DNA from: an uncultured Lachnospiraceae bacterium
GTDB lineage: Bacteria; Bacillota; Clostridia; Lachnospirales; Lachnospiraceae
DNA: 64,000 nt
NCBI GenBank assembly: GCA_947630025.1
Contig: CANRFZ010000008.1
Span: 62,001-126,000, forward strand
Direction of reading: 5' to 3'
The position numbers and the translations under genes were made by a program. Shown in pieces: positions 17,129 to 63,977 of the stretch. Position 1 is the first letter of the stretch; every line of letters starts with the position of its first letter. The notes below the pieces were generated by a model, which was given only the letters and a program-made list of their open reading frames with translations, was not told the origin of the DNA and made no database searches.

Positions 17129-18016
17129 CTACAGGTTTAAGTATGCGGCGATCCCTTGCGCGATCCCGGAGGCGATCTTTTCCTGATATTCGTCGCTGCA
17201 CAGTTTCTTCCGTTCCTCCTTGTTGGAAAGGAAGCCGGTTTCGATCAGGCAGGAGGGCATCCGGCTTCTGTTGACGACGCACAGTTCGTCGTCCGCCACC
17301 AGCTCCCTCTCGTTGGCGTCCGTGGCGCGGACAACCGCCTTTTCGATAAGCTGCGCCAGCTTTTGGCTGCTCTCCGTCAGGTCGTTTTCGCCGTACCATG
17401 TCTCGATGCCGGAGACGTCCGCCAGCTCGCAGGAGTTCTGATGGATGCTGACATAGACCGCCGCTTTCCTCTCGTTGGCGCTCTCTACCCGCTCCGCCTT
17501 GTCGATCCATTCGTCGCCCTCTCTGGTCAGAACAACCTGATAGCCCTGCTCCTGCAGAATGAGCGCCGTCCGCTGCGCGATCTTTAGGTTGATGTCCTTT
17601 TCCAAAACGCCGCCGCACACGCAGCCGCCGTCTCTGCCGCCGTGTCCGGGATCAAGGACGATCACGCCGCCCTCCGCGGCAGCCTCCTCTCCGGTGTCCT
17701 CCGCGTCGGTGTCTTCGTCTCCTGCATTCTCCGCGTCGGCATCTCCGTCTCCCGCATTCTCCGTATCGGTGTCTCCGTCTCCTGCATTCTCTGCATCGGC
17801 GTCTCCGTCTCCCACGCTCTCTGTTCCGGCGGTAACGTCCTGCGCTGCCTCCGCCTCCGCCGCCACGACCTGCGACGCTTTGGTCTGCACCGCCGCGGCC
17901 ATGCAGACAATGATAATGCAGATGACCGTCACAACCCATACTACCTTTTTCAGATACCCGCGGATTCTGTCTTTTTTCCTCTGCGCCTGATAATAATGAC
18001 TCGACTCTGCGTACAT
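17129..18016 (-). CDS. N-acetylmuramoyl-L-alanine amidase (Amidase_3)
   Basis: The zinc amidase cleaves the bond between muramic acid and the stem peptide. The 295-residue protein has a cytoplasmic basic N-terminus, one membrane segment (about 24-42), an acidic repeat linker (69-108) and an Amidase_3 domain. Visible zinc-site and catalytic elements are VLDPGHGGRDGG (His125), VSIHQNS and the late CLIETGFLSN with Glu. The single anchor suggests it stays at the membrane, facing the wall. Start is ATG 18016 behind GAGAGGGG. The linker is an unusual 10-residue tandem repeat. Confidence 0.93.
   Translation of the reverse strand: MYAESSHYYQAQRKKDRIRGYLKKVVWVVTVICIIIVCMAAAVQTKASQVVAAEAEAAQDVTAGTESVGDGDADAENAGDGDTDTENAGDGDADAENAGDEDTDAEDTGEEAAAEGGVIVLDPGHGGRDGGCVCGGVLEKDINLKIAQRTALILQEQGYQVVLTREGDEWIDKAERVESANERKAAVYVSIHQNSCELADVSGIETWYGENDLTESSQKLAQLIEKAVVRATDANERELVADDELCVVNRSRMPSCLIETGFLSNKEERKKLCSDEYQEKIASGIAQGIAAYLNL
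17693..17812 (-). repeat. 30-bp tandem repeat in the amidase linker
   Basis: Four 10-codon units of the form GDGDADAENA encode an acidic spacer between membrane anchor and catalytic domain. The copies are nearly identical in DNA, so the number is likely to vary between strains. Confidence 0.85.
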
Positions 18017-23455: not shown

Positions 23456-24907
23456 TTAAACATTGATCTCCGCCTTCACGCCCAGCAGCTCTCTGTTACG
23501 CTCCAGAATAGGCGTGACCACTTCCTGCAGGAACTGATCTACCTGCAGCGGCGCCCGACCCACATATCTGGCGGGCTCCATCGTCTCCTGCAGCTTCTCC
23601 GGCGTCATATGGAACGCCTCGTCCTGCGCGATCAGCTCCAGCAGATTGTTCTCCCTGCCCTCGCGCTTCACATTGGCGCCCGCCTGCATGGACAGCTCGC
23701 GGATCTTCTCGTGCAGTTCCTGACGGTTGCCGCCCAGCTTGACCGCATCCATCATAATATTTTCCGTCGCCATAAAGGGCAGTTCGCTCATCAGCCGTTT
23801 GGCAATCACCTTGTCGTACACCACCAGTCCGTCCACCACGTTCAGGCACAGATCCAGTATGCCGTCCACTGCCAGGAAAGCCTCCGGGATGGACAGGCGT
23901 TTGTTGGCGGAGTCGTCCAGCGTTCTCTCGAACCACTGCGTCGCGGAAGTGACCGCCGGGTTCAGCGCGTCGATCATCACGTACCGGGCCAGCGACGCGA
24001 TGCGCTCGCTGCGCATCGGATTGCGCTTGTACGCCATCGCCGAGGAACCGATCTGGTTCTTTTCAAAAGGCTCCTCCACCTCTTTGAGATGCTGGAGCAG
24101 TCTGATGTCGTTGGACATCTTGTGGGCGGATGCGGCAATCCCCGCCAGCACGTTGCAGACTCTCGTGTCCACCTTGCGGGAATAGGTCTGTCCCGACACC
24201 GGATAGCACTGCGCGAAGCCCATCTTCTCGGCGATCATCGGATCGATCCTGTCGATCTTCTCCTGATCGCCGTCGAACAGTTCCAAAAAGGACGCCTGCG
24301 TACCCGTCGTTCCCTTGGAGCCCAGCAGCTTCATCGTGGAGAGCACGTAGTCCAGATCTTCCAGATCCATACAGAATTCCTGCGTCCACAGGGTAGCGCG
24401 CTTGCCTACCGTCGTGGGCTGCGCAGGCTGGAAATGCGTAAACGCCAGCGTCGGCAGATCGCGGTACGTGCGGGCAAAATCCGCCAGCTCCGCAATCACG
24501 TTGACCAGCTTCTTCTTCACCAGCTTCAGCGCTTCCGTCATAACGATGATGTCCGTGTTGTCGCCCACGTAGCAGGACGTGGCGCCCAGATGGATGATGC
24601 CCGCCGCCTTGGGGCACTGCTGCCCGTAGGCGTACACGTGGCTCATGACGTCGTGGCGCACTTCCTTTTCCCGCGCCCGGGCCACATCATAATTGATATC
24701 CTCCGCGTGGGCCTTCATCTCGTCGATCTGCTCCTGCGTGATGACGGGCCTGCCATCCTGACATAACCCCAGCTCCATTTCCGTCTCCGCCAGCGCAATC
24801 CACAGTTTCCTCCACGTCCTGAATTTCATGTCCTGCGAAAAGATATACTGCATCTCCCGGCTGGCATAACGTTCCGATAACGGACTTACATATCTGTCTG
24901 TACTCAT
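23456..24907 (-). CDS. purB: Adenylosuccinate lyase
   Basis: PurB catalyses two fumarate-releasing steps in purine synthesis (SAICAR to AICAR, adenylosuccinate to AMP). The 483-residue protein has the superfamily signature GSSAMAYKRNPMRSERI near residue 285, the HLGATSCYVGDN region, and TTGTQASFLELF. The start is taken at ATG 24907 because GGAGAGG precedes it; the frame stays open upstream through leader-repeat copy A5. It lies 98 bp after purF on the same strand, probably one purine operon. Confidence 0.96.
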   Translation of the reverse strand: MSTDRYVSPLSERYASREMQYIFSQDMKFRTWRKLWIALAETEMELGLCQDGRPVITQEQIDEMKAHAEDINYDVARAREKEVRHDVMSHVYAYGQQCPKAAGIIHLGATSCYVGDNTDIIVMTEALKLVKKKLVNVIAELADFARTYRDLPTLAFTHFQPAQPTTVGKRATLWTQEFCMDLEDLDYVLSTMKLLGSKGTTGTQASFLELFDGDQEKIDRIDPMIAEKMGFAQCYPVSGQTYSRKVDTRVCNVLAGIAASAHKMSNDIRLLQHLKEVEEPFEKNQIGSSAMAYKRNPMRSERIASLARYVMIDALNPAVTSATQWFERTLDDSANKRLSIPEAFLAVDGILDLCLNVVDGLVVYDKVIAKRLMSELPFMATENIMMDAVKLGGNRQELHEKIRELSMQAGANVKREGRENNLLELIAQDEAFHMTPEKLQETMEPARYVGRAPLQVDQFLQEVVTPILERNRELLGVKAEINV

Positions 24908-24920
24908 TTTCCTCTCCATT

Positions 24921-25008
24921 CTGAAGCGTTTCATGTAAGCGGCAGGAAGCGGTTCCCGCGGAAATTTCCTCCGCCTTGGGAAAATCTGTGACGCTCCGCA
25001 CAGATTTA
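24921..25008 (-). repeat. Leader-repeat family A, copy 5 (diverged) before purB
   Basis: It contains the characteristic hairpin AAATCTGTG-loop-CACAGATTT with loop CGGAGCGT on the minus strand. A different second hairpin follows (TTCC-GCG-GGAA within an AGGAA/TTCCT stem), and the copy ends AACGCTTCAGAATGGAG. Stem base pair T-A of the other copies is C-G here, a covariation. It spans the purF stop and ends at the purB ribosome site. Confidence 0.55.
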
Positions 25009-26442
25009 CCGTTCATATTCCCCGCGGATGTCCTCCGTCGGCGTCTCCATCGGATAACGCCCCGTAAAGCACCCCATACAGATGCCCAGCCCGTCCACAA
25101 GTTCCGGGAGGCGCTCCGGTCTCAGATAGGCCAGAGAATCCGCGCCGATGATCTGACGGATCTCCTCCACCGAACGGTTGTAGGCGATGAGCTGCTCTCT
25201 GGCGGGAACGTCCGTGCCGAAGTAACAGGGCCACAGAAACGGCGGCGAGCTGACGCGCATATGTACTTCTCTCGCGCCCGCATCGCGCAGCATCTTGACG
25301 ATCCTGTCCGATGTCGTCCCGCGCACAATGGAATCGTCTATCATAATAATGCGCTTGCCCCTGACGGCTTCCCGGATAGCGTTCAGCTTCACCTGTACGC
25401 TGCTCTCCCGGCTCTTTTGGCCGGGCTTGATAAAGGTACGCCCGACGTAAGCGTTTTTGACAAACGCCTGTCCGTTGGGTATTCCCGACTCCATGGCGTA
25501 TCCCAGCGCGGCGCAGTTGCCGGACTCCGGCACGCCCACCACCAGATCCGCCTCCACCGGGGAGTCCATGGCCAGAAATCTGCCCGCCCGGATGCGGGAT
25601 TCGTAGACGCTGACGCCGTCCAGCCTGCTGTCCGGTCTGGCGAAATAGATATACTCAAACACGCATCTGCCGTGCGCTTTTTCGGGAAGGCACATACTTC
25701 TGTCCGATTCGATCCCCTTTTCCGGCGAGATCGTGACGATCTCTCCCGGCTCCACGTCCCGCACGAACTCTGCGCCGATCGTATCCAGCGCGCAGGTCTC
25801 CGACGCGAGGATATAGGCGTTGTCGCGTCTGCCGATGCAGAGCGGCCTGAAGCCGTAGGGATCTCTAGCGCCGATCAGCTTGCGGGGCGACATCACGATC
25901 AGGGAATAGGCGCCCTTGATCTTCTTCATCGCGCGGCCCACCGCCTCCTCTACGGTCTTGCTGTTCAGACGCTCTCTGGCGATATGGTACGCGATGACCT
26001 CCGAGTCGATGGTCGTCTGAAAGATCGCGCCGGTGTACTCCAGCTCGTGCCGAAGCTGCAGGGCGTTGATCAGATTGCCGTTGTGCGCCAGCGCCAGCGT
26101 GCCTTTCACATAATTCAATACCAGCGGCTGGGCGTTCTCCCGGGTGCTGCTGCCCGCCGTGGAATACCGCACATGGCCCACGCCGATATCGCCCTGCAGC
26201 CTGTCCAGAATATCCGGCGTAAAGTTCTCGTTGAGCAGTCCCATCTCCTTGACGCTCAGCACCTTTCCCTTGGGGCCGGCGGTGTCGCTGACCGCGATGC
26301 CGCAGCTCTCCTGCCCTCTGTGCTGCAGGGCAAAGAGCCCGTAATAGACCGTGGATGCGACGTTGTTGCCGTCAAAGTCATAAATGCCGAATACGCCGCA
26401 CTCCTCGCCGGGCTTTTCCGCTTGTTCCGTCTCCGTGTTCAT
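25006..26442 (-). CDS. purF: Amidophosphoribosyltransferase
   Basis: PurF makes phosphoribosylamine from PRPP and glutamine, the first committed step of purine synthesis. The 478-residue protein starts MNTETEQAEKPGEECGVFGI; Cys15 should become the N-terminal nucleophile after removal of a short propeptide. The PRPP loop appears as IIMIDDSIVRGTT. C-terminal CMGCFTGRYP and upstream cysteines fit the [4Fe-4S] type-B enzymes. ATG 26442 is the first with a reasonable site (GAGAGGATGCAGT). Confidence 0.96.
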   Translation of the reverse strand: MNTETEQAEKPGEECGVFGIYDFDGNNVASTVYYGLFALQHRGQESCGIAVSDTAGPKGKVLSVKEMGLLNENFTPDILDRLQGDIGVGHVRYSTAGSSTRENAQPLVLNYVKGTLALAHNGNLINALQLRHELEYTGAIFQTTIDSEVIAYHIARERLNSKTVEEAVGRAMKKIKGAYSLIVMSPRKLIGARDPYGFRPLCIGRRDNAYILASETCALDTIGAEFVRDVEPGEIVTISPEKGIESDRSMCLPEKAHGRCVFEYIYFARPDSRLDGVSVYESRIRAGRFLAMDSPVEADLVVGVPESGNCAALGYAMESGIPNGQAFVKNAYVGRTFIKPGQKSRESSVQVKLNAIREAVRGKRIIMIDDSIVRGTTSDRIVKMLRDAGAREVHMRVSSPPFLWPCYFGTDVPAREQLIAYNRSVEEIRQIIGADSLAYLRPERLPELVDGLGICMGCFTGRYPMETPTEDIRGEYER

Positions 26443-33764: not shown

Positions 33765-34139
33765 ATGGTCGGTTTATCGGACGGGGAATGGAAGATCATG
33801 AATTATCTGTGGGAGAGTCAGGGCGGCACGGTCACGGAGATCACGGCGGCGCTGCTGGACGAGACGGCATGGGACAGACACAGTATCATCACCATGCTGA
33901 GCCGCATGGAGAAAAAGGGCGCGGTGGCGCACAGGCAGGGAAGCCGCGCCAAAGTCTTCTATCCCGTCGTGTCCCGCAGTGAAGTTTCGATGGAGGAGAC
34001 GCGGGGATTTCTGCAGAAGGTGTACCGCGGCAGTCTGGGCATGATGGTCAATGCCATGGTGGAAGATCAGGCGTTGTCGCAGGAGGAAATCCAAGAATTG
34101 TACGATATTCTCGAACAGGCGAAGCACAGAGACAAATAG
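33765..34139 (+). CDS. BlaI/MecI-family repressor
   Basis: The 124-residue winged-helix repressor starts MVGLSDGEWKIMNYLWESQG and includes DRHSIITMLSRMEKKGAVAHRQ (recognition region) and VFYPVVSR. The C-terminal helices form the dimer interface cut during induction in BlaI. ATG 33765 is chosen over upstream starts because GCAGGAGGAACAG precedes it. It is followed by the M56 peptidase gene, with leader-repeat copy A3 inserted between them. Confidence 0.93.
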   Translation: MVGLSDGEWKIMNYLWESQGGTVTEITAALLDETAWDRHSIITMLSRMEKKGAVAHRQGSRAKVFYPVVSRSEVSMEETRGFLQKVYRGSLGMMVNAMVEDQALSQEEIQELYDILEQAKHRDK

Positions 34140-34144
34140 GGGCG

Positions 34145-34300
34145 GCGTAAACGCTCCGGAAAGAGGCTAAGTGTGAAAAATCACGCTGATGCGCTGATTT
34201 TTCACACGGGAATTTGTGCCGGAGCGTCACAAATTCCCCTGATGGCAGACGCGAATTTGAGATTCGCGTCGCCCCGTCGCGTAAACGCTCCGGAAAGAGG
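34145..34300 (+). repeat. Leader-repeat family A, copy 3, between the repressor and M56 genes
   Basis: The element is bounded by a 22-bp direct repeat (34145-34166 and 34279-34300, containing GTAAACGCTCCGGAAAGAGG). Inside, a TGTGAAAAATCA/TGATTTTTCACA hairpin comes first. Next is the hairpin GGGAATTTGTG-CCGGAGCGT-CACAAATTCCC (34208-34238), and then GACGCGAAT/ATTCGCGTC, which replaces the AATTCC/GGAATT hairpin of copies 1 and 2. It ends 6 bp before the M56 start. Confidence 0.85.
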
Positions 34301-34310
34301 AATAGTATGA
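34173..34310 (+). CDS. Possible leader peptide in repeat copy A3
   Basis: GTG 34173, with GAGG 6 bp upstream, opens a 45-codon frame beginning MKNHADALIF and ending PRRVNAPERGIV. Its TGA overlaps the M56 ATG (ATGA). Copy A2 has a matching start (MKNHTDVLI), but the two frames diverge afterwards. Translation is unproven; coupling to the downstream start is the likely role if it is read. Confidence 0.35.
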   Translation: MKNHADALIFHTGICAGASQIPLMADANLRFASPRRVNAPERGIV

Positions 34311-36145
34311 AAGAAATCATCATCACTTCTTCGGTGCTGATACTTTGTATTCTGTTGATCCGGAAGATTTTCCGTGGGAAAATCAGCGGCAGGCTGCAGT
34401 ATGCCCTCTGGCTTTTGGCGGCGCTGCGGCTGATGCTGCCGGTGGCGGCGGTGCCGGTGGCAGTCGGTTCTCTGGAGTCGTTCCGCGTGGTGGATCTGAC
34501 ACAGGCGTTGGAAATGCAGATGGGAGACTTGGAGACACTGCTGGAGAAACCCGTCCCATTTACGGCGGCCCTGCCCAGCGTCATCGGAAAACCGGAAGGC
34601 AAAACGCTATCCGCCGTCTCAATGCCGGACGAAGCGGCGGCGGAAGCGACTTCCATATTTGATGCAGGAAAGGCCGGCCTGACATGGCTTACTGTCCTGC
34701 GCGGCCTTTGGCAGGGCGGCATGGTCGTTACGGCACTGTGGATCATAGGCGTCAATCTCCTGTTTGCGCGCAGACTGCACCGGAACAGAACAGAATATGT
34801 GCAGGACACGTCGGCGGAACAGGCGAATGCCGGCATCTGCCGCATAGAGGCGCATCGCAGATCGACGGCGCATTTAAAAGAAAAGCGGGCTTCCGGCAGG
34901 ACAAAACGATATATCGCAGACGGATTAAAATCGCCCTGCCTGTATGGGCTGCCGTTCCGGGAGGCAGTCTATTTCCCGCCGGATATCGCCGCGGACGAAA
35001 CGCGGCTGCGCCATGTGCTGGTGCATGAAATGTGCCATAAGAGACACGGCGACGGCTTCTGGTCTCTCCTGCGGAGTCTGCTGGTCATCGTGTACTGGTT
35101 CAACCCGCTGGTGTGGGCGGCGGCGCTATTGTCCAAGCAGGACTGTGAACTGGCGTGCGATGAGGCCGCGATCAAGGCGCTCGGCGAGACGGAAAGAATA
35201 TCCTATGGCGAGACGCTGCTCTCCATCCTCACACGGCGGGGCAGTATGTCGGATGTCGTCTGTACGGCTACGACGATGACGGGAAACGGCAGAAATATCA
35301 AAGAGCGGATACGCCTGATTGCAGAGAGACCTCGCGCGCTTGGCGCTGCGGCGGTATTGACGGCGGTGGCTGCCGCAGCCGCTGCGGTGATCGTGTTCAC
35401 AAAAGATCCCTCGTTTCACGGCGCCACCTGGAGCGGCGAAACTTTTGTCAAAATGCCTGTCGCCGCCGGCAGCATACAGATCGCACTGCCGGAGACCGTA
35501 GAGGGCATCTGCGGCTATGCAGCCGACAAAGGCGGGGATCTGGTTCTGTATCAGGTCTCCTCCCAAAAAGAGGTAGGGAGATTCTGCGAATTGTCCTACG
35601 GAGAGGCGGTCGTTCTCTGGGAACAGGGAAAGGAAATCGTGCCCGCGGGCGATTACGGACAGAATCGGTATCTGAAAGAGTATATCGACAGGCAGACTAA
35701 CGGCGGCACGGAGGTGACGCATCATAGCGGTGCAGATGCGGCAAAAGAGAGTATGTCGCAGGACTATCAGCCCGCCGAGAATGCGAAAGAAAACACAGGC
35801 CCGGTGTATCTGCCGGATGAGAAGATCACGACGACCTATACCGTCGCAGAAGATAGCAGTGAGACGACCTATATCATCGTAGACGATAACGATAAGACAG
35901 GGAATGCGGCAGAAGGGAGTGCGGCACAGGACTATCAGCCCGCCGAGAATACGGAGGGGAACGCAGGCCCGGTGTATCTGCCGGACGAGAAGATCACGAC
36001 GACCTATACGCCGGCGGCGACAGGAAACTGTTACGTCTATGTGAAAGGCAGCTATGCCGGCGTAGCCGAACAATATCTGAACGAAATGGAATTTATCAAC
36101 AGTGAACTGGAAGCCGCCGCGGAGCGGGCGGCGGCTTCCCCTTAA
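34307..36145 (+). CDS. M56-family BlaR1/MecR1-like membrane metallopeptidase
   Basis: The 612-residue protein has N-terminal membrane helices (start MKEIIITSSVLILCILLIRK) and a cytoplasmic-loop zinc peptidase HEMCHKRHG with ELACDEAAI, the M56 signature. A helix follows at about 345-365 (GAAAVLTAVAAAAAAVIVF). In BlaR1 the extracellular C-terminus is a penicillin-binding sensor; here it is about 245 residues with no SxxK/KTG pattern, and it carries two copies of QDYQPAEN...GPVYLPDEKITTTYT (about 484-512 and 541-569). The signal sensed is therefore probably not a beta-lactam bound covalently. It should inactivate the upstream repressor. Confidence 0.85.
   Translation: MKEIIITSSVLILCILLIRKIFRGKISGRLQYALWLLAALRLMLPVAAVPVAVGSLESFRVVDLTQALEMQMGDLETLLEKPVPFTAALPSVIGKPEGKTLSAVSMPDEAAAEATSIFDAGKAGLTWLTVLRGLWQGGMVVTALWIIGVNLLFARRLHRNRTEYVQDTSAEQANAGICRIEAHRRSTAHLKEKRASGRTKRYIADGLKSPCLYGLPFREAVYFPPDIAADETRLRHVLVHEMCHKRHGDGFWSLLRSLLVIVYWFNPLVWAAALLSKQDCELACDEAAIKALGETERISYGETLLSILTRRGSMSDVVCTATTMTGNGRNIKERIRLIAERPRALGAAAVLTAVAAAAAAVIVFTKDPSFHGATWSGETFVKMPVAAGSIQIALPETVEGICGYAADKGGDLVLYQVSSQKEVGRFCELSYGEAVVLWEQGKEIVPAGDYGQNRYLKEYIDRQTNGGTEVTHHSGADAAKESMSQDYQPAENAKENTGPVYLPDEKITTTYTVAEDSSETTYIIVDDNDKTGNAAEGSAAQDYQPAENTEGNAGPVYLPDEKITTTYTPAATGNCYVYVKGSYAGVAEQYLNEMEFINSELEAAAERAAASP
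36113..36138. repeat. 26-bp direct repeat, left copy
   Basis: GCCGCCGC-GGAGCG-GGCGGCGGC followed by TTC is a G+C hairpin at the very end of the M56 coding region. The identical 26 bp recur at 37112-37137. The two copies bracket the A+T-rich GNAT toxin-antitoxin-like pair. Confidence 0.85.
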
Positions 36146-36770: not shown

Positions 36771-36948
36771 TCGCTTTCTCCCTTTTCATTCTAAGAAACA
36801 TCAGGTCATCTTTCCCTTTTAACTGTCTGGCAGCCACAGGGATGCGGTTTGGACGGTCATTGGCAGACGCTTCAATGGCATCAGCAAACATCTCCACCTG
36901 CCGTTTACCCGATATAACAAAATTTTTCGTAATACTTGAAGTTGCCAT
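36757..36948 (-). CDS. Small antitoxin-like protein paired with the GNAT gene
   Basis: The 63-residue protein from ATG 36948 begins MATSSITKNFVISGKRQVEMFADAI and ends in a basic tail. GGAG lies 7 bp upstream. The frame extends upstream into repeat copy A4 (giving MAKFIPMEFTFVRRV), but the internal start fits the ribosome site better and matches related small clostridial proteins beginning MATSSIT. Its stop overlaps the GNAT start. No clear ribbon-helix-helix is seen; the antitoxin role is inferred from position. Confidence 0.55.
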   Translation of the reverse strand: MATSSITKNFVISGKRQVEMFADAIEASANDRPNRIPVAARQLKGKDDLMFLRMKREKANGSK

Positions 36949-36966
36949 AAACATCTCCATTTCAAA

Positions 36967-37022
36967 AACATTTACACGACGGACAAAGGTAAATTCCATC
37001 GGAATGAACTTTGCCATCAAGG
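36967..37022 (-). repeat. Leader-repeat family A, copy 4 (degenerate)
   Basis: Read on the minus strand it runs GATGGCAAAGTTCATTCC, then GATGGAATTTACCTTTG and CGTCGTGTAAATG. It aligns with copies 1 and 2 and keeps the ATTCC-GAT-GGAAT hairpin. It again sits directly upstream of and co-oriented with a gene start. Confidence 0.65.
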
Positions 37023-50159: not shown

Positions 50160-50206
50160 AGAGGATCTCCAATCTTGTATATTTAAATCAATCTGCGATT
50201 ACTATA

Positions 50207-50283
50207 TTTTATCTCTGATGCCAGTAAAGTAAACCACTCCGGGAGAATTGCGAAGCAATTCTCTTAGCGCAGATTGCTGAATC
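50207..50283 (-). repeat. Repeat family B, copy 1
   Basis: On the minus strand it reads AGAATTGC-TTC-GCAATTCT, CCCGGAGTGG, TTTACTTTACTGG and CATCAGAGATAAAATA. An AGCGCAGATT/AATCTGCGCT hairpin precedes it. It lies 50 bp before the start of the beta-CASP gene and is co-oriented with it. Copy 2 is at 61555-61625. Confidence 0.8.
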
Positions 50284-53844: not shown

Positions 53845-54348
53845 TCAGAAACTCCTGATCCGATCCGTTCCGTCGTCCACGGTATTTTCGATCGATTTCA
53901 CCACCACGTAGTAGCCGTTGCCCGGACTGATCTCCACATAGACCCGGTCGCCTGCCTTGTGCCCCAATAGCGCCCGTCCCAGCGGCGACTCCGTGCTGAT
54001 CAGCCCCGCGAGGGAATCGCCCCGGACGGTGGTGACGATCTTGTACTTCTCCGTCGTCTGGTCGTCCTCGAAGTAGACCTCCACGGTATTGTTCATCCCC
54101 ACTTCGTCATCCGGCGACTCATCGGAGACGATCACCGCCGTCTTAATCATGCGCTCCAGATAGCGTATCCGGCTCTCGTTCTGGTTCTTGAATTTTTTGG
54201 CGGCGTGGTACTCGAAGTTCTCGCTCAAGTCGCCGTGGGCGCGCGCTGCTTTCACGTCCTCCAGCGCGTCCCGGCGCACCACCAGCTTTCTGTATTCGAT
54301 TTCCTCCTGCATCTTCTCTATGTCTTTTTGTGTCAGTTCGTTGTGCAT
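53845..54348 (-). CDS. greA: Transcription elongation factor GreA
   Basis: GreA rescues backtracked RNA polymerase by stimulating transcript cleavage. The 167-residue protein has the N-terminal coiled-coil (ELTQKDIEKMQEEIEYRKLV, then ARAHGDLSENFEYHAAK with the acidic tip D-L-S-E-N) and the C-terminal FKBP-like domain (STESPLGRALLGHKAGD). The start ATG 54348 has GGAG upstream within leader-repeat copy A2. Its 5' region is unusually long and structured. Confidence 0.95.
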   Translation of the reverse strand: MHNELTQKDIEKMQEEIEYRKLVVRRDALEDVKAARAHGDLSENFEYHAAKKFKNQNESRIRYLERMIKTAVIVSDESPDDEVGMNNTVEVYFEDDQTTEKYKIVTTVRGDSLAGLISTESPLGRALLGHKAGDRVYVEISPGNGYYVVVKSIENTVDDGTDRIRSF

Positions 54349-54509
54349 TCGTTAATCTCCATTCCGGAGCGTTTACGCGACGAAGGCAAAAAGTAAATTC
54401 CTTCGGAATTAACTTTGCCATCAGGGGAATTTGTGACGCTCCGGCACAAATTCCCAAACGAACAAGGTTCGTTTTGTGAAACAATCAGCACATCAGTGTG
54501 ATTTTTCAT
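54333..54509 (-). CDS. Possible leader peptide in repeat copy A2
   Basis: ATG 54509, preceded by GAAGGATAGT, opens 58 codons starting MKNHTDVLIVSQNE. The TGA lies 14 bases inside greA in another frame. The start matches the MKNHADALIF frame of copy A3, but an indel puts the later part in a different frame. This argues that the act of translation or the RNA structure matters more than the peptide. Confidence 0.3.
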   Translation of the reverse strand: MKNHTDVLIVSQNEPCSFGNLCRSVTNSPDGKVNSEGIYFLPSSRKRSGMEINECTTN

Positions 54510-54510
54510 A
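54364..54510 (-). repeat. Leader-repeat family A, copy 2, before greA
   Basis: In transcription order: an AAATCACACTGATGTGCTGATT hairpin region, then AAACGAAC-CTT-GTTCGTTT. Next comes GGAATTTGTG-CCGGAGCGT-CACAAATTCC (54454 down to 54426), then GGCAAAGTTAATTCC-GAA-GGAATT..TTTTTGCC. The element ends CGTAAACGCTCCGG, 15 bp before the greA start. Confidence 0.85.
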
Positions 54511-54540
54511 CTATCCTTCTCTTATTTTCATAAGCCGCGC

Positions 54541-61554: not shown

Positions 61555-61625
61555 CGATGTAAAATATGAGTAAATTGCTTCGCAATTCTTCCGGAATGAT
61601 TTATAGTACTGGCATCAGAGATATG
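61555..61625 (+). repeat. Repeat family B, copy 2
   Basis: It shares AAATTGCTTCGCAATTCT, CCGGAATGATTTATAG and TACTGGCATCAGAGATA with the copy at 50.2 kb. It sits about 27 bp before the LTA-synthase-like gene, in the same orientation. TATGAT in its end could be a -10. Confidence 0.8.
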
Positions 61626-61651
61626 ATAAAGTACAAAGGACAAAGAAAGAG

Positions 61652-63859
61652 ATGTGGATCTTATTGGCGGTATTGGCGGGCGAAGCGGTCTGGCTGGAGC
61701 TCGTCTATCATTTCAGCGGTTTCGGATGGGCCAGTCTGTGCCCGGTGCCCGGTCTTTTTCTCATCATGGCATGGACGGGTCTCTGGTCTGCCGTAATCTG
61801 CCTGCTCAAAAACAAACCCCAAAAAATCCTGTACTATATAGCGCTCTGGCTGCCGGTGGTGTGGGCCGGCGCGCAGCTTGTCTATCTGCGCATCTTTAAG
61901 CAGCCCCTTCTCTGGGAGGCGGTCATCTATCAGGGAAACGACGCGCTGACGACCTACTGGCGCGAAGCGCTGGCGGGCATCGCGGGCGCGCTGCCTTTTC
62001 TCCTGCTGATGGCCCTGCCCGCGGCCATACTCCCCATCATCCTGAAGAAACGTCAGTGGACGCTGCCGCAGTGCAGTCTGCGCCGGACGCTACCCCTGCT
62101 GGCCGTGATCCTCGCCGGCATCGCCGGAAGCGCGGCATCCCTCCTCATCGGCAGCGCAGCCGGACAGGAGTACGCGGACGAACTGACGGAATTTTATGAT
62201 CCGCTGGCGGTGGCCGAGGACATGGGCGTTCTGGCCACTCTCCACGGCGATACCGCGCTGCGGCTCCGCAGCCTTGCCGCCGGTATGACACAGGGAACCG
62301 TGACGCAGGCTTCCGGCTATGTTCCCGCCGTAAGCGCCGACACCGCGGCCCCCGCAGCCGCCTCCCGGAACGGACTGCAGGCGCAGGCCGATCCCGCCGG
62401 GGAGGGAACCGCGCAGGCAGACACACAGGACGGCGCGGCACAGTCCGGCGCAAACGCCGCCCCGTCCGGCACGGATGCCGATACAGACGCCGGCGCTGAC
62501 ACAGAGACGGACGCAGACGAACCCGAGACGCCGCAGATCGTGCCGCACCAATTCGACATCGACTATGCGCTGCTCCATGAGCTGGCGGACAACGACCACC
62601 AGACTTGGCTGGCAGACTACATCGAAGGACAGACGCCCACCGACAGCAACGAGTATACCGGTATCTTTGAAGGCTATAACCTGATCTTTCTCACCGCCGA
62701 AGGCTTCAGCACCTATGCCATCGACGAGGAACTGACGCCCACGCTCTACCGGCTCAGTCACAGCGGCTTCGTGTTCAACAACTACTATGTACCGATCTGG
62801 CAGACCAGCACCAGCGACGGCGAGTACGTCAATATGACGGGCCTGATCCCCGACCAGCAGTTCAGTATGCGCAAAAGCGCCGCCAACGTCCAGCCCTTCG
62901 TGATGCCCGCTTTTTTTGCCGCAGACGGCGTAAAATCCTACGCCTACCACGACAATTCCCTCTCTTACTATGAACGGCAGAATACCCATCCCAATATGGG
63001 ATACGATTTCAGGGCCAGCTCATTGGGCAATCTGAGCGAGGCCGAATGGGGCAGCCACGTTTTCGAGATGGAGAACCCCGGCCAGTGGCCCGCCTCCGAC
63101 TACAACATGATGAAAGCCACCGTGCCGGAATATGTGCACGACGAACGGTTCCACGTCTATTACATGACGGTCTCCGGGCATATGAATTATAACTTCAAAG
63201 GCAACGCCATGTCCGCCAAGAACAAAGAGGCGGTGGCGGATCTGGAGCTCTCCGAAGGCCCCCGCGCATACATCGCCTGCAATATCGAGCTGGACAAGGC
63301 GCTGGAAAATCTGCTGGAGCAGCTCGAAGACGCCGGGCAGCTCGAAAAAACCGTGATCTGCCTCAGCGCCGACCACTACCCTTACGGACTGACGGACGAG
63401 CAGTACACCGAGCTGGCGGGCCGGGATCTGTCGCAGGGCAAAGACCTGTTCCGCAACACGCTGATCCTGTGGAATGCGGGAATGGAGGACGAACCCGTCT
63501 ATGTGGACAAAGCCTGCTGCTCCATCGATCTGCTCCCTACGCTGCTGAATCTGTTCGGATTCCCTTTTGATTCGCGTATGTACGCCGGACGCGATATCTT
63601 TTCCGACCGGGAGGGCATGGTAATCTTTAACAACCGGGATTTTCTGACGGATTCCGTCATCTTTATCGAAAGGGGCGACATCACCACATGGCTGCAGGAT
63701 GAGAACGGCAGCGACATCATTCCGGACGCGGACAAGGAAGCCTACCTCGAGGCGATGCGCGCCGAAGTGAAGCAGCGCTATACTTTCAGCGCGTATATTC
63801 TGCAGGAAAATTACTATAGCGACGTGCTGCAGGCGATGCGGGAGCCGGACGCTGGTTGA
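61652..63859 (+). CDS. LTA synthase-like membrane sulfatase-fold protein
   Basis: The 735-residue protein has about five N-terminal membrane helices (to ~170), a low-complexity Ala/Asp/Thr/Gly linker (about 222-295) and an extracellular alkaline-phosphatase-fold domain. The likely catalytic Thr lies in IWQTSTSDGEYVNMTGL, metal-site segments include FLTAEGFSTYA and LSADHYPYGL, and MTVSGHMNY is another conserved block. Family members transfer glycerol- or ethanolamine-phosphate to lipids or wall polymers. ATG 61652 has AAAGGA upstream. The long linker is atypical for LtaS. Confidence 0.88.
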   Translation: MWILLAVLAGEAVWLELVYHFSGFGWASLCPVPGLFLIMAWTGLWSAVICLLKNKPQKILYYIALWLPVVWAGAQLVYLRIFKQPLLWEAVIYQGNDALTTYWREALAGIAGALPFLLLMALPAAILPIILKKRQWTLPQCSLRRTLPLLAVILAGIAGSAASLLIGSAAGQEYADELTEFYDPLAVAEDMGVLATLHGDTALRLRSLAAGMTQGTVTQASGYVPAVSADTAAPAAASRNGLQAQADPAGEGTAQADTQDGAAQSGANAAPSGTDADTDAGADTETDADEPETPQIVPHQFDIDYALLHELADNDHQTWLADYIEGQTPTDSNEYTGIFEGYNLIFLTAEGFSTYAIDEELTPTLYRLSHSGFVFNNYYVPIWQTSTSDGEYVNMTGLIPDQQFSMRKSAANVQPFVMPAFFAADGVKSYAYHDNSLSYYERQNTHPNMGYDFRASSLGNLSEAEWGSHVFEMENPGQWPASDYNMMKATVPEYVHDERFHVYYMTVSGHMNYNFKGNAMSAKNKEAVADLELSEGPRAYIACNIELDKALENLLEQLEDAGQLEKTVICLSADHYPYGLTDEQYTELAGRDLSQGKDLFRNTLILWNAGMEDEPVYVDKACCSIDLLPTLLNLFGFPFDSRMYAGRDIFSDREGMVIFNNRDFLTDSVIFIERGDITTWLQDENGSDIIPDADKEAYLEAMRAEVKQRYTFSAYILQENYYSDVLQAMREPDAG

Positions 63860-63860
63860 A

Positions 63861-63977
63861 ATGCAAAAACTTTATTTTTTTTACACTTTTTGCACTGAAA
63901 TGCAAAAACTTTATTTTTCTGACAGTTTTTGCACCAAAATGCAAAAACTTTACTTTTTTGACAGTTTTTGCAATATT
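63861..63977. repeat. Three tandem 39-bp hairpin repeats
   Basis: Units start at 63861, 63900 and 63939. Units 2 and 3 contain TGCAAAAACT and AGTTTTTGCA arms; unit 1 has a slightly altered right arm. They begin two bases after the stop of the LTA-synthase-like gene and could terminate transcription or bind a regulator. The remaining 23 bases of the window hold nothing recognised. Confidence 0.85.

Follow-up and report, generated by a model that had tools for sequence, protein, structure and literature searches.

The start codon (34307-34309) of an M56 (BlaR1-type) peptidase gene (34307-36145; Pfam PF05569) lies on the forward strand of the 64,000-nucleotide stretch of Lachnospiraceae DNA analysed here (hereafter the window), immediately behind a full copy of a folded repeat. 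The match of our covariance model, R1, to this copy spans 34155-34312 on the same strand. It opens with a left flank (34155-34169) carrying an older Shine-Dalgarno sequence (SD), AAAGAGG, and this flank seems to be what is left of the 3' end of an earlier copy (34145-34169), as indicated by a direct repeat (D17, 34145-34178 and 34279-34312) and by the empty site in relatives. The element starts with an A followed by hairpin 1 (34170-34207; GTGTGAAAAATC...GATTTTTCACAC, with a bulged C), recognised by its fold and by covariation helices 1-2, and a GTG codon stands here 6 nt past the upstream SD. Hairpin 2 (34208-34238) has an 11-bp stem, supported by folding and by helix 3 of the alignment, in which 9 of 11 pairs changed on both sides. 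Its loop, CCGGAGCGT (34219-34227), is the 5' strand of a pseudoknot whose 3' strand, ACGCTCCGG, lies at 34285-34293, both strands being assigned from loop complementarity and covariation. Hairpin 2 is followed by a linker with hairpin 3 (GACGCGAATTTGAGATTCGCGTC, 34239-34278; fold and covariation helices 5-7), which is swapped for another hairpin in other copies, and by a small hairpin 4 (GCGT-AA-ACGC, 34279-34288), which was assigned from stem counts against shuffles and competes with the pseudoknot for ACGC. The element's 3' end, read directly from the letters, is a new SD, AAAGAGG, with a 6-nt spacer (34294-34306).

Full copies of the element, which measures about 120-150 bp, share one order: an older SD, 2-4 nt, three hairpins, a small fourth hairpin, the new SD, 6 nt and the start codon. 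Written out in the gene-sense direction, the layout comprises an SD-like flank, an A with hairpin 1, an optional extra hairpin, hairpin 2 with its 9-nt loop, the linker TGATGGCA, hairpin 3, hairpin 4, ACGCTCCGG, the SD, ATTANN and ATG. The consensus of the 3' end is CGCTCCGG-AATGGAG-ATTANN-ATG, where AATGGAG is the SD. Hairpin 1 has 13 bp or more, with the bulged C in its main version, and hairpin 3 occurs in more than one sequence version. Terminal inverted repeats were not found, the left end AGTGTGAAAAATC and the right end GGAATGGAGATT not being inverted copies of each other.

A preliminary description of the window had reported at least five copies in 64 kb, and all five places proved to belong to one repeat family, each oriented with the following gene. 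The other four are on the reverse strand. A 5'-truncated copy (1267-1408; R1) precedes an ORF earlier called a lipoprotein (start codon 1272-1270), a diverged copy (24902-25031; R1) precedes purB, whose product has an adenylosuccinate lyase Pfam match, and a full copy with an extra hairpin (54345-54527; R1) precedes greA, likewise with its Pfam match. Of the fourth (36946-37022), identified by eye and from repeat family D6, a short, decayed 3' portion remains, which includes the SD and the start codon of an ORF earlier called antitoxin-like; the copy listed there at 36967-37022 is absent from the R1 hits at E<=0.01.

The source genome (2.64 Mb in 30 contigs, 81.6% complete) belongs to a large genus and contains 58 BLAST matches to the copy at 34140-34312. 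R1, built from 24 full copies, returned 84 rows at E<=0.01, and the 66 forward hits among them were analysed after exclusion of 16 antisense hits, which reflect the hairpin-2 palindrome, and two weak rows (E 0.0027 and 0.0029). Forms truncated at the 5' side retain the 3' end, and some internally deleted forms retain hairpin 1 and the 3' SD. Loci L206, L201, L074 and L017 appear to hold tandem or nested copies in which the right end of one copy is the left flank of the next. Near-identical own copies (L006, L010 and L011) differ in hairpin 1 by paired changes in both arms; single-arm intermediates numbered zero in the 15 copies counted, and 195 of 195 cells were Watson-Crick, as if one arm had templated the other.

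Conserved base pairing, on which the preliminary description had made its proposal depend, was found in a structure of 45 pairs. The alignment comprised 51 diverse copies and was made with MAFFT without structure, and the structure was written by hand after reading it. These 51 rows remained from 64 matches when 13 were set aside, namely the near-duplicates L003 and L340, the second L339 copy, the cut L073 copy and the weaker L079-L087; among the latter, loop complementarity reaches 6-8 bp in L079, L081 and L082 and is not notable in L080 and L083-L087. Over the 45-pair structure, pseudoknot included, 95.6% of cells are paired and 33 pairs changed on both sides, with 273 both-side-changed cells versus 69.9 in shuffles; slid controls stayed below 49% paired. 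The shuffles leave relatedness in, and the slid controls keep it too.

The pseudoknot, formed by the hairpin-2 loop and the segment immediately 5' of the new SD, covaries across genera. Taken alone it is 93.2% paired, with 43 both-side-changed cells versus 7.6 in shuffles, and its five pairs outside hairpin 4 are 96.1% paired, with 28 versus 4.7. Judged by the number of pairs altered on both sides, the pseudoknot is not clearly above shuffles (55 of 500; 240 of 500 for the five unshared pairs). Its versions, given as loop and 3' strand, include CCGGAGCGT/ACGCTCCGG, CCGAAGCGT/ACGCTTCGG, TTCTGAGCGA/TCGCTCAGAA and CGCAGACGT/ACGTCTGCG, and three scaffolds found by BLAST outside the alignment carry the loop CCGCAGGCG and the 3' strand CGCCTGCGG in full match. 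Column counts for hairpin 4 are weaker (75.5% paired, two of five measures not above shuffles); its stems counted row by row average 4.0, against a maximum of 3.69 in 300 shuffles. Copying between the arms could likewise preserve a perfect palindrome like hairpin 1, but it does not account for the pseudoknot, the arms of which are 57 nt apart in the copy at 34170.

The kind of departure from pairing bears on which strand folds. Across genera, the seven pseudoknot pairs contain 15 G-U versus 2 A-C cells, all helices together 36 versus 17, and hairpin 3 seven of each; among the copies of the source genome, the pseudoknot has 7 G-U versus 8 A-C cells and all helices 10 versus 11. The gene-sense strand thus seems to be the folded one, under a constraint that seems to operate at the level of the lineage and hardly on individual copies.

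With respect to genes, an ORF of at least 40 codons starts within -14 to +5 nt of the match end in 52 of the 66 own copies, and 41 share one identical offset. Among the 38 strongest copies, 33 have an ORF of at least 80 codons starting no more than 6 nt from the expected place, versus four with an antisense start near the 5' end; R1 itself includes the ATG columns, an effect estimated to be small for hits above 60 bits. The orientation is therefore strongly one-sided, as had been claimed for the copies in the window. Over all loci examined, 174 pattern matches left 125 right ends, and the start codon stands at +5 in 90 of these; 13 have no start codon between +3 and +10, about six of them being real element ends by eye. 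On the left, an SD-like core lies no more than 15 nt before the element in 65 of 71 copies, at a distance of 2-4 nt in 50 of the 65, and in 46 of 63 copies the left and right flank lengths together give a normal spacing of 5-7 nt from SD to start. A control within the source genome found the SD-like core in 23 of 30 left flanks versus 30 of 150 windows further upstream. The SD before the left end, the normal summed spacing and the start codon at the right end together place the insertion point in the SD-start spacer. The earlier placement of the repeats 6-30 bp before the ribosome site was wrong, since the 3' end of the element is itself the ribosome site and the older SD usually abuts its 5' end.

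An ordinary palindromic repeat of the REP/MITE type could in principle insert anywhere and acquire a start-codon bias through loss of its other insertions. The 14 of 66 own copies whose end lacks an ORF of at least 40 codons agree with such a history, as do the roughly six genuine right ends that lack a start codon. However, random insertion should leave copies in 3' intergenic sites as well, and in both orientations, yet 33 of the 38 strong copies end at a start codon, and the SD-like core that precedes nearly every left end also argues against it. We regard this explanation as very improbable.

Orthologous loci were read and searched with R1 at three junctions (blaI-blaR1, greA and purN), thirty loci each. 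The blaI-blaR1 junction holds a strong copy in one of 30 loci, that of the source genome, with a weak match in the same gap in G009 (L095, E 0.0004), and the nearest relatives have a plain SD and start. At greA the element is present in three of 30 loci (the source genome, G031 and G061), and these copies are of different versions, so that they probably represent separate insertions. At purN it is present in two of 30 (the source genome and G028), the copy in G028 being followed by a second SD; L304 was unreadable, the match having begun inside the gene. No element was found upstream of purB in three readable relatives. Because orthologous loci are mostly empty, the copies are taken as insertions, and movement is accordingly suggested by these between-species sequence comparisons. 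The native SD-spacer could not be recognised behind the element in the blaR1 and greA loci, so replacement at insertion or later change may be involved, and flank identity in the source genome, examined for target-site duplication, is not above shuffles. The proposal of a mobile, co-oriented, structured 5' leader placed at start codons is supported by these observations.

The covariance model detected copies in 28 of 36 other genomes of the genus and in one of 24 genomes from other families of the order (G043). Searches with stricter filters, in which 7 candidates were scored per genome, gave 52 of 397 genomes and 47 of 334 genera across the family, and 3 of 391 genomes across the class, all three in Lachnospiraceae. 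An exact 26-base core occurs at no fewer than 80 loci; among the matches listed, the metagenome-assembled genomes are mostly labelled Eisenbergiella, Acetatifactor, Lachnospira or Lachnospiraceae, with one Clostridium sp. and one Eubacteriales, and many are from rabbit or chicken by isolate name. A scan of viral contigs with the element pattern gave 0 matches, and no element match was found on plasmids. Three GenBank records labelled Bacteriophage sp. (MT838414, MT836788 and MT837007; L373-L375), which are unverified fecal scaffolds, contain the element. On one of them the ORF behind it is what we take to be an enolase-like gene, and these scaffolds are therefore probably bacterial.

We consider it probable that the family is a non-autonomous mobile element of about 120-150 bp, which inserts in one orientation into the SD-start spacer and restores a working SD. 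Insertion would take place 2-4 nt past the SD and about 3 nt before the start codon, in the gene-sense orientation, with a right end made of the SD plus three bases. Because the 3' end brings a new SD at the right distance, the interrupted gene would keep a ribosome-binding site. The mover would presumably require the folded strand, either as RNA or as single-stranded DNA, and the SD-like sequence may serve both as the insertion target and as the element's own right end; regulation of the host gene would then be a side effect and not the reason for spread. A longer autonomous version with the same ends was looked for among 87 left ends, with 170 nt inspected for each, and no ORF-sized insert was seen. 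A right end follows within 230 nt in 59 of the 87, and the 28 farther cases are, by eye, mostly misses of the right-end pattern, with two that run off the contig (L186 and L187) and a few short or decayed ones.

As a mechanism for this explanation, and not as its opposite, transposition of single-stranded DNA by an HUH (Y1) enzyme of the IS200/IS605 or REP-associated type was weighed, with the SD-like sequence acting as target and as cleavage site of the right end. The imperfect hairpin at the left end and the single orientation speak for it. So does a resemblance between left flank and right end, which across lineages is greater within than between loci (6.45 versus 5.87 of 11 positions, 0 of 2000 shuffles, 44 rows) and would agree with target and right end being recognised by one module, as happens in single-strand transposition; shared lineage can also explain this cross-lineage resemblance, however, and in the source genome alone it was not significant (P 0.15, 23 rows). 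The Y1 enzyme was found in 12 of 29 carriers versus 1 of 8 non-carriers among the 37 genomes in both searches, and its domain (PF01797) is present in 15 of 41 genomes of the genus. Yet PF01797 was not found in the source genome (81.6% complete), nor in G002, G006, G009, G028 and G030, which have 36 to 48 element matches each. On balance such a mechanism appears unlikely. A Y1 transposase as the present mover was rejected, being missing from the source genome and several high-copy genomes; several genomes in the Y1 and reverse transcriptase searches are incomplete.

Considerably less likely still is a route by way of RNA and reverse transcription, in which the insertion site would be selected on the mRNA. 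The fixed 3' end with truncated 5' ends and the G-U excess of the pseudoknot are consistent with it, and reverse transcriptase (PF00078) occurred in 7 of 13 carriers versus 2 of 8 non-carriers tested. However, 5' truncation is expected anyway because the gene needs the 3' SD, and PF00078 was not found in G002, G006, G009, G034, G003 and G019, with 21 to 46 element matches. The absence from these six carriers makes reverse transcriptase a doubtful mover.

The non-autonomous mobile element that we favour also has to be compared with a cis-regulatory RNA (riboswitch- or leader-peptide-like) of one regulon, in which pseudoknot and hairpin 4 would compete beside the SD and switch translation. Several features favour such a role: the two structures overlap at ACGC, both with covarying partners, and strong copies sit at start codons (33 of 38). 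Besides, an NTG codon lies shortly past the upstream SD in 46 of the 51 diverse copies, and in 27 of 51 its frame runs on without a stop beyond the pseudoknot strand, versus 1 and 0 of 51 for the other frames. The NTG behind the old SD and the open frame suggest that many copies may have a translated leader ORF, and the predicted competition for ACGC could form a switch.

Against one regulon stand the downstream genes, as the ten scanned proteins belong to ten different Pfam families (carbamoyltransferase, purN-type formyltransferase, HisG, TrkA, ATP synthase epsilon, M56 peptidase, GreA, sigma factor, GTPase and PurB). Moreover, occupancy varies between species at the four loci read, neither the leader frame nor its end is conserved, and departures in the pseudoknots of own copies are as often A-C as G-U. 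Computed SD accessibility was also like that of shuffled elements, being higher in 15 of 25 copies (P 0.30). The mean unpaired probability of the SD was 0.463 with the element, 0.442 with shuffled elements and 0.464 when the native upstream sequence was used (P 0.30, 25 copies), in nested folding, with pseudoknots outside the model. A regulon RNA of this kind is thus doubtful. Insulation of the SD by the element was rejected, with no accessibility change in nested folding. A leader peptide as a conserved coding gene was also rejected; in 45 of 74 copies its frame stays open as far as the region of the gene start, and frame and modules vary.

The preliminary description had further suggested that the leader gives unrelated genes a shared translational control. 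This was not established: occupancy varies between species at the loci read, the pseudoknot departures in own copies are 8 A-C and 7 G-U, and the computed accessibility of the SD is unchanged. These departures, species differences and unchanged accessibility fit selection on the element's own spread at least as well as host regulation, and shared control of downstream genes is possible. A broader reading would make the family its own class of mobile RNA, recognising ribosome-binding sites as such and inserting between SD and start codon. The old SD would then open a leader ORF and the new SD would lie behind a pseudoknot/hairpin switch, so that dozens of unrelated genes would come under one translational switch; we hold this to be tentative, with a chance slightly better than that of the regulon RNA.

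The element appears to be undescribed and new among small interspersed repeats. Rfam gave no match for the whole window at the gathering threshold, for 34000-34420 up to E=1, or for eight diverse loci at gathering, and literature searches turned up no description of it. HEARO/OMEGA RNA elements are mobile structured RNAs that typically carry a nuclease ORF, and the copies of our element that were searched had no Rfam match. Unlike riboswitches and ribosomal-protein leaders, it precedes ten downstream families and not one pathway, and the orthologous sites at four loci are mostly empty. It differs from MITEs in lacking terminal inverted repeats and, in the source genome, a significant target-site duplication. 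Small interspersed repeats can alter the transcription, termination or RNA stability of their neighbours.

Closer comparisons are offered by repeat families with described placement or mobility. REP/RAYT palindromes, as portrayed in the parts of the sources consulted, are short and have many copies, many of them with a short tag at one end, and are thought to be moved in trans (PMC3733652, PMC8266576); our element resembles them as a short palindromic repeat in many copies. According to the same portions, however, REPs are extragenic and 20-40 bp long, whereas the element has 120-150 bp, several hairpins and a pseudoknot, and lies in the SD-start spacer; no Y1 enzyme was found in several of its high-copy genomes either. 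Among the marks of REP/RAYT or IS200/IS605 systems, an SD-like target and one orientation are present, and the resemblance of left flank and right end is significant across lineages and not in the source genome. The pneumococcal BOX, RUP and SPRITE repeats are, in the consulted part of their description, small interspersed repeats judged parasitic, with BOX modular and transcribed and some copies holding ORFs (PMC3049150). That part describes neither placement in the SD-start spacer nor delivery of an SD, and the BOX ORFs lacked good SD candidates (PMC3049150). In marine Beggiatoaceae, TAACTGA direct repeats form 169 sets, mostly in one orientation and immediately 5' of the start codons of unrelated genes, as far as the excerpt consulted describes them (PMC4679880). 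These are heptamer direct repeats overlapping the expected SD, with few SDs left, in contrast to a folded insertion that brings its own SD (PMC4679880, same excerpt).

By landing in the gap between the SD and the start codon and restoring the SD, a repeat of this kind would offer a natural means of rewiring the translation of many genes at once. Its targeting rule would have to differ from the rules of the repeat families compared here. The covarying pseudoknot can be tested directly, and copies in many gut species allow strain comparisons.

Other repeats were also observed in the window. A second pair at 50200-50260 and 61573-61633 is 85% alike in inverted orientation and contains a GAATTGC-TTCG-CAATTC hairpin with CTGGCATCAGAGATA, and one of its copies stands just before the ORF at 61652. 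Directly 3' of that ORF (61652-63859), three tandem 39-bp units (TGCAAAAACTTTATTTTT...TTTTTGCA) occupy 63857-63973. Two 106-bp direct repeats, 88% alike, lie at 35736-36009 within the M56 peptidase ORF, and 30-bp tandem units in 4 overlapping copies lie within an ORF at 17677-17826.
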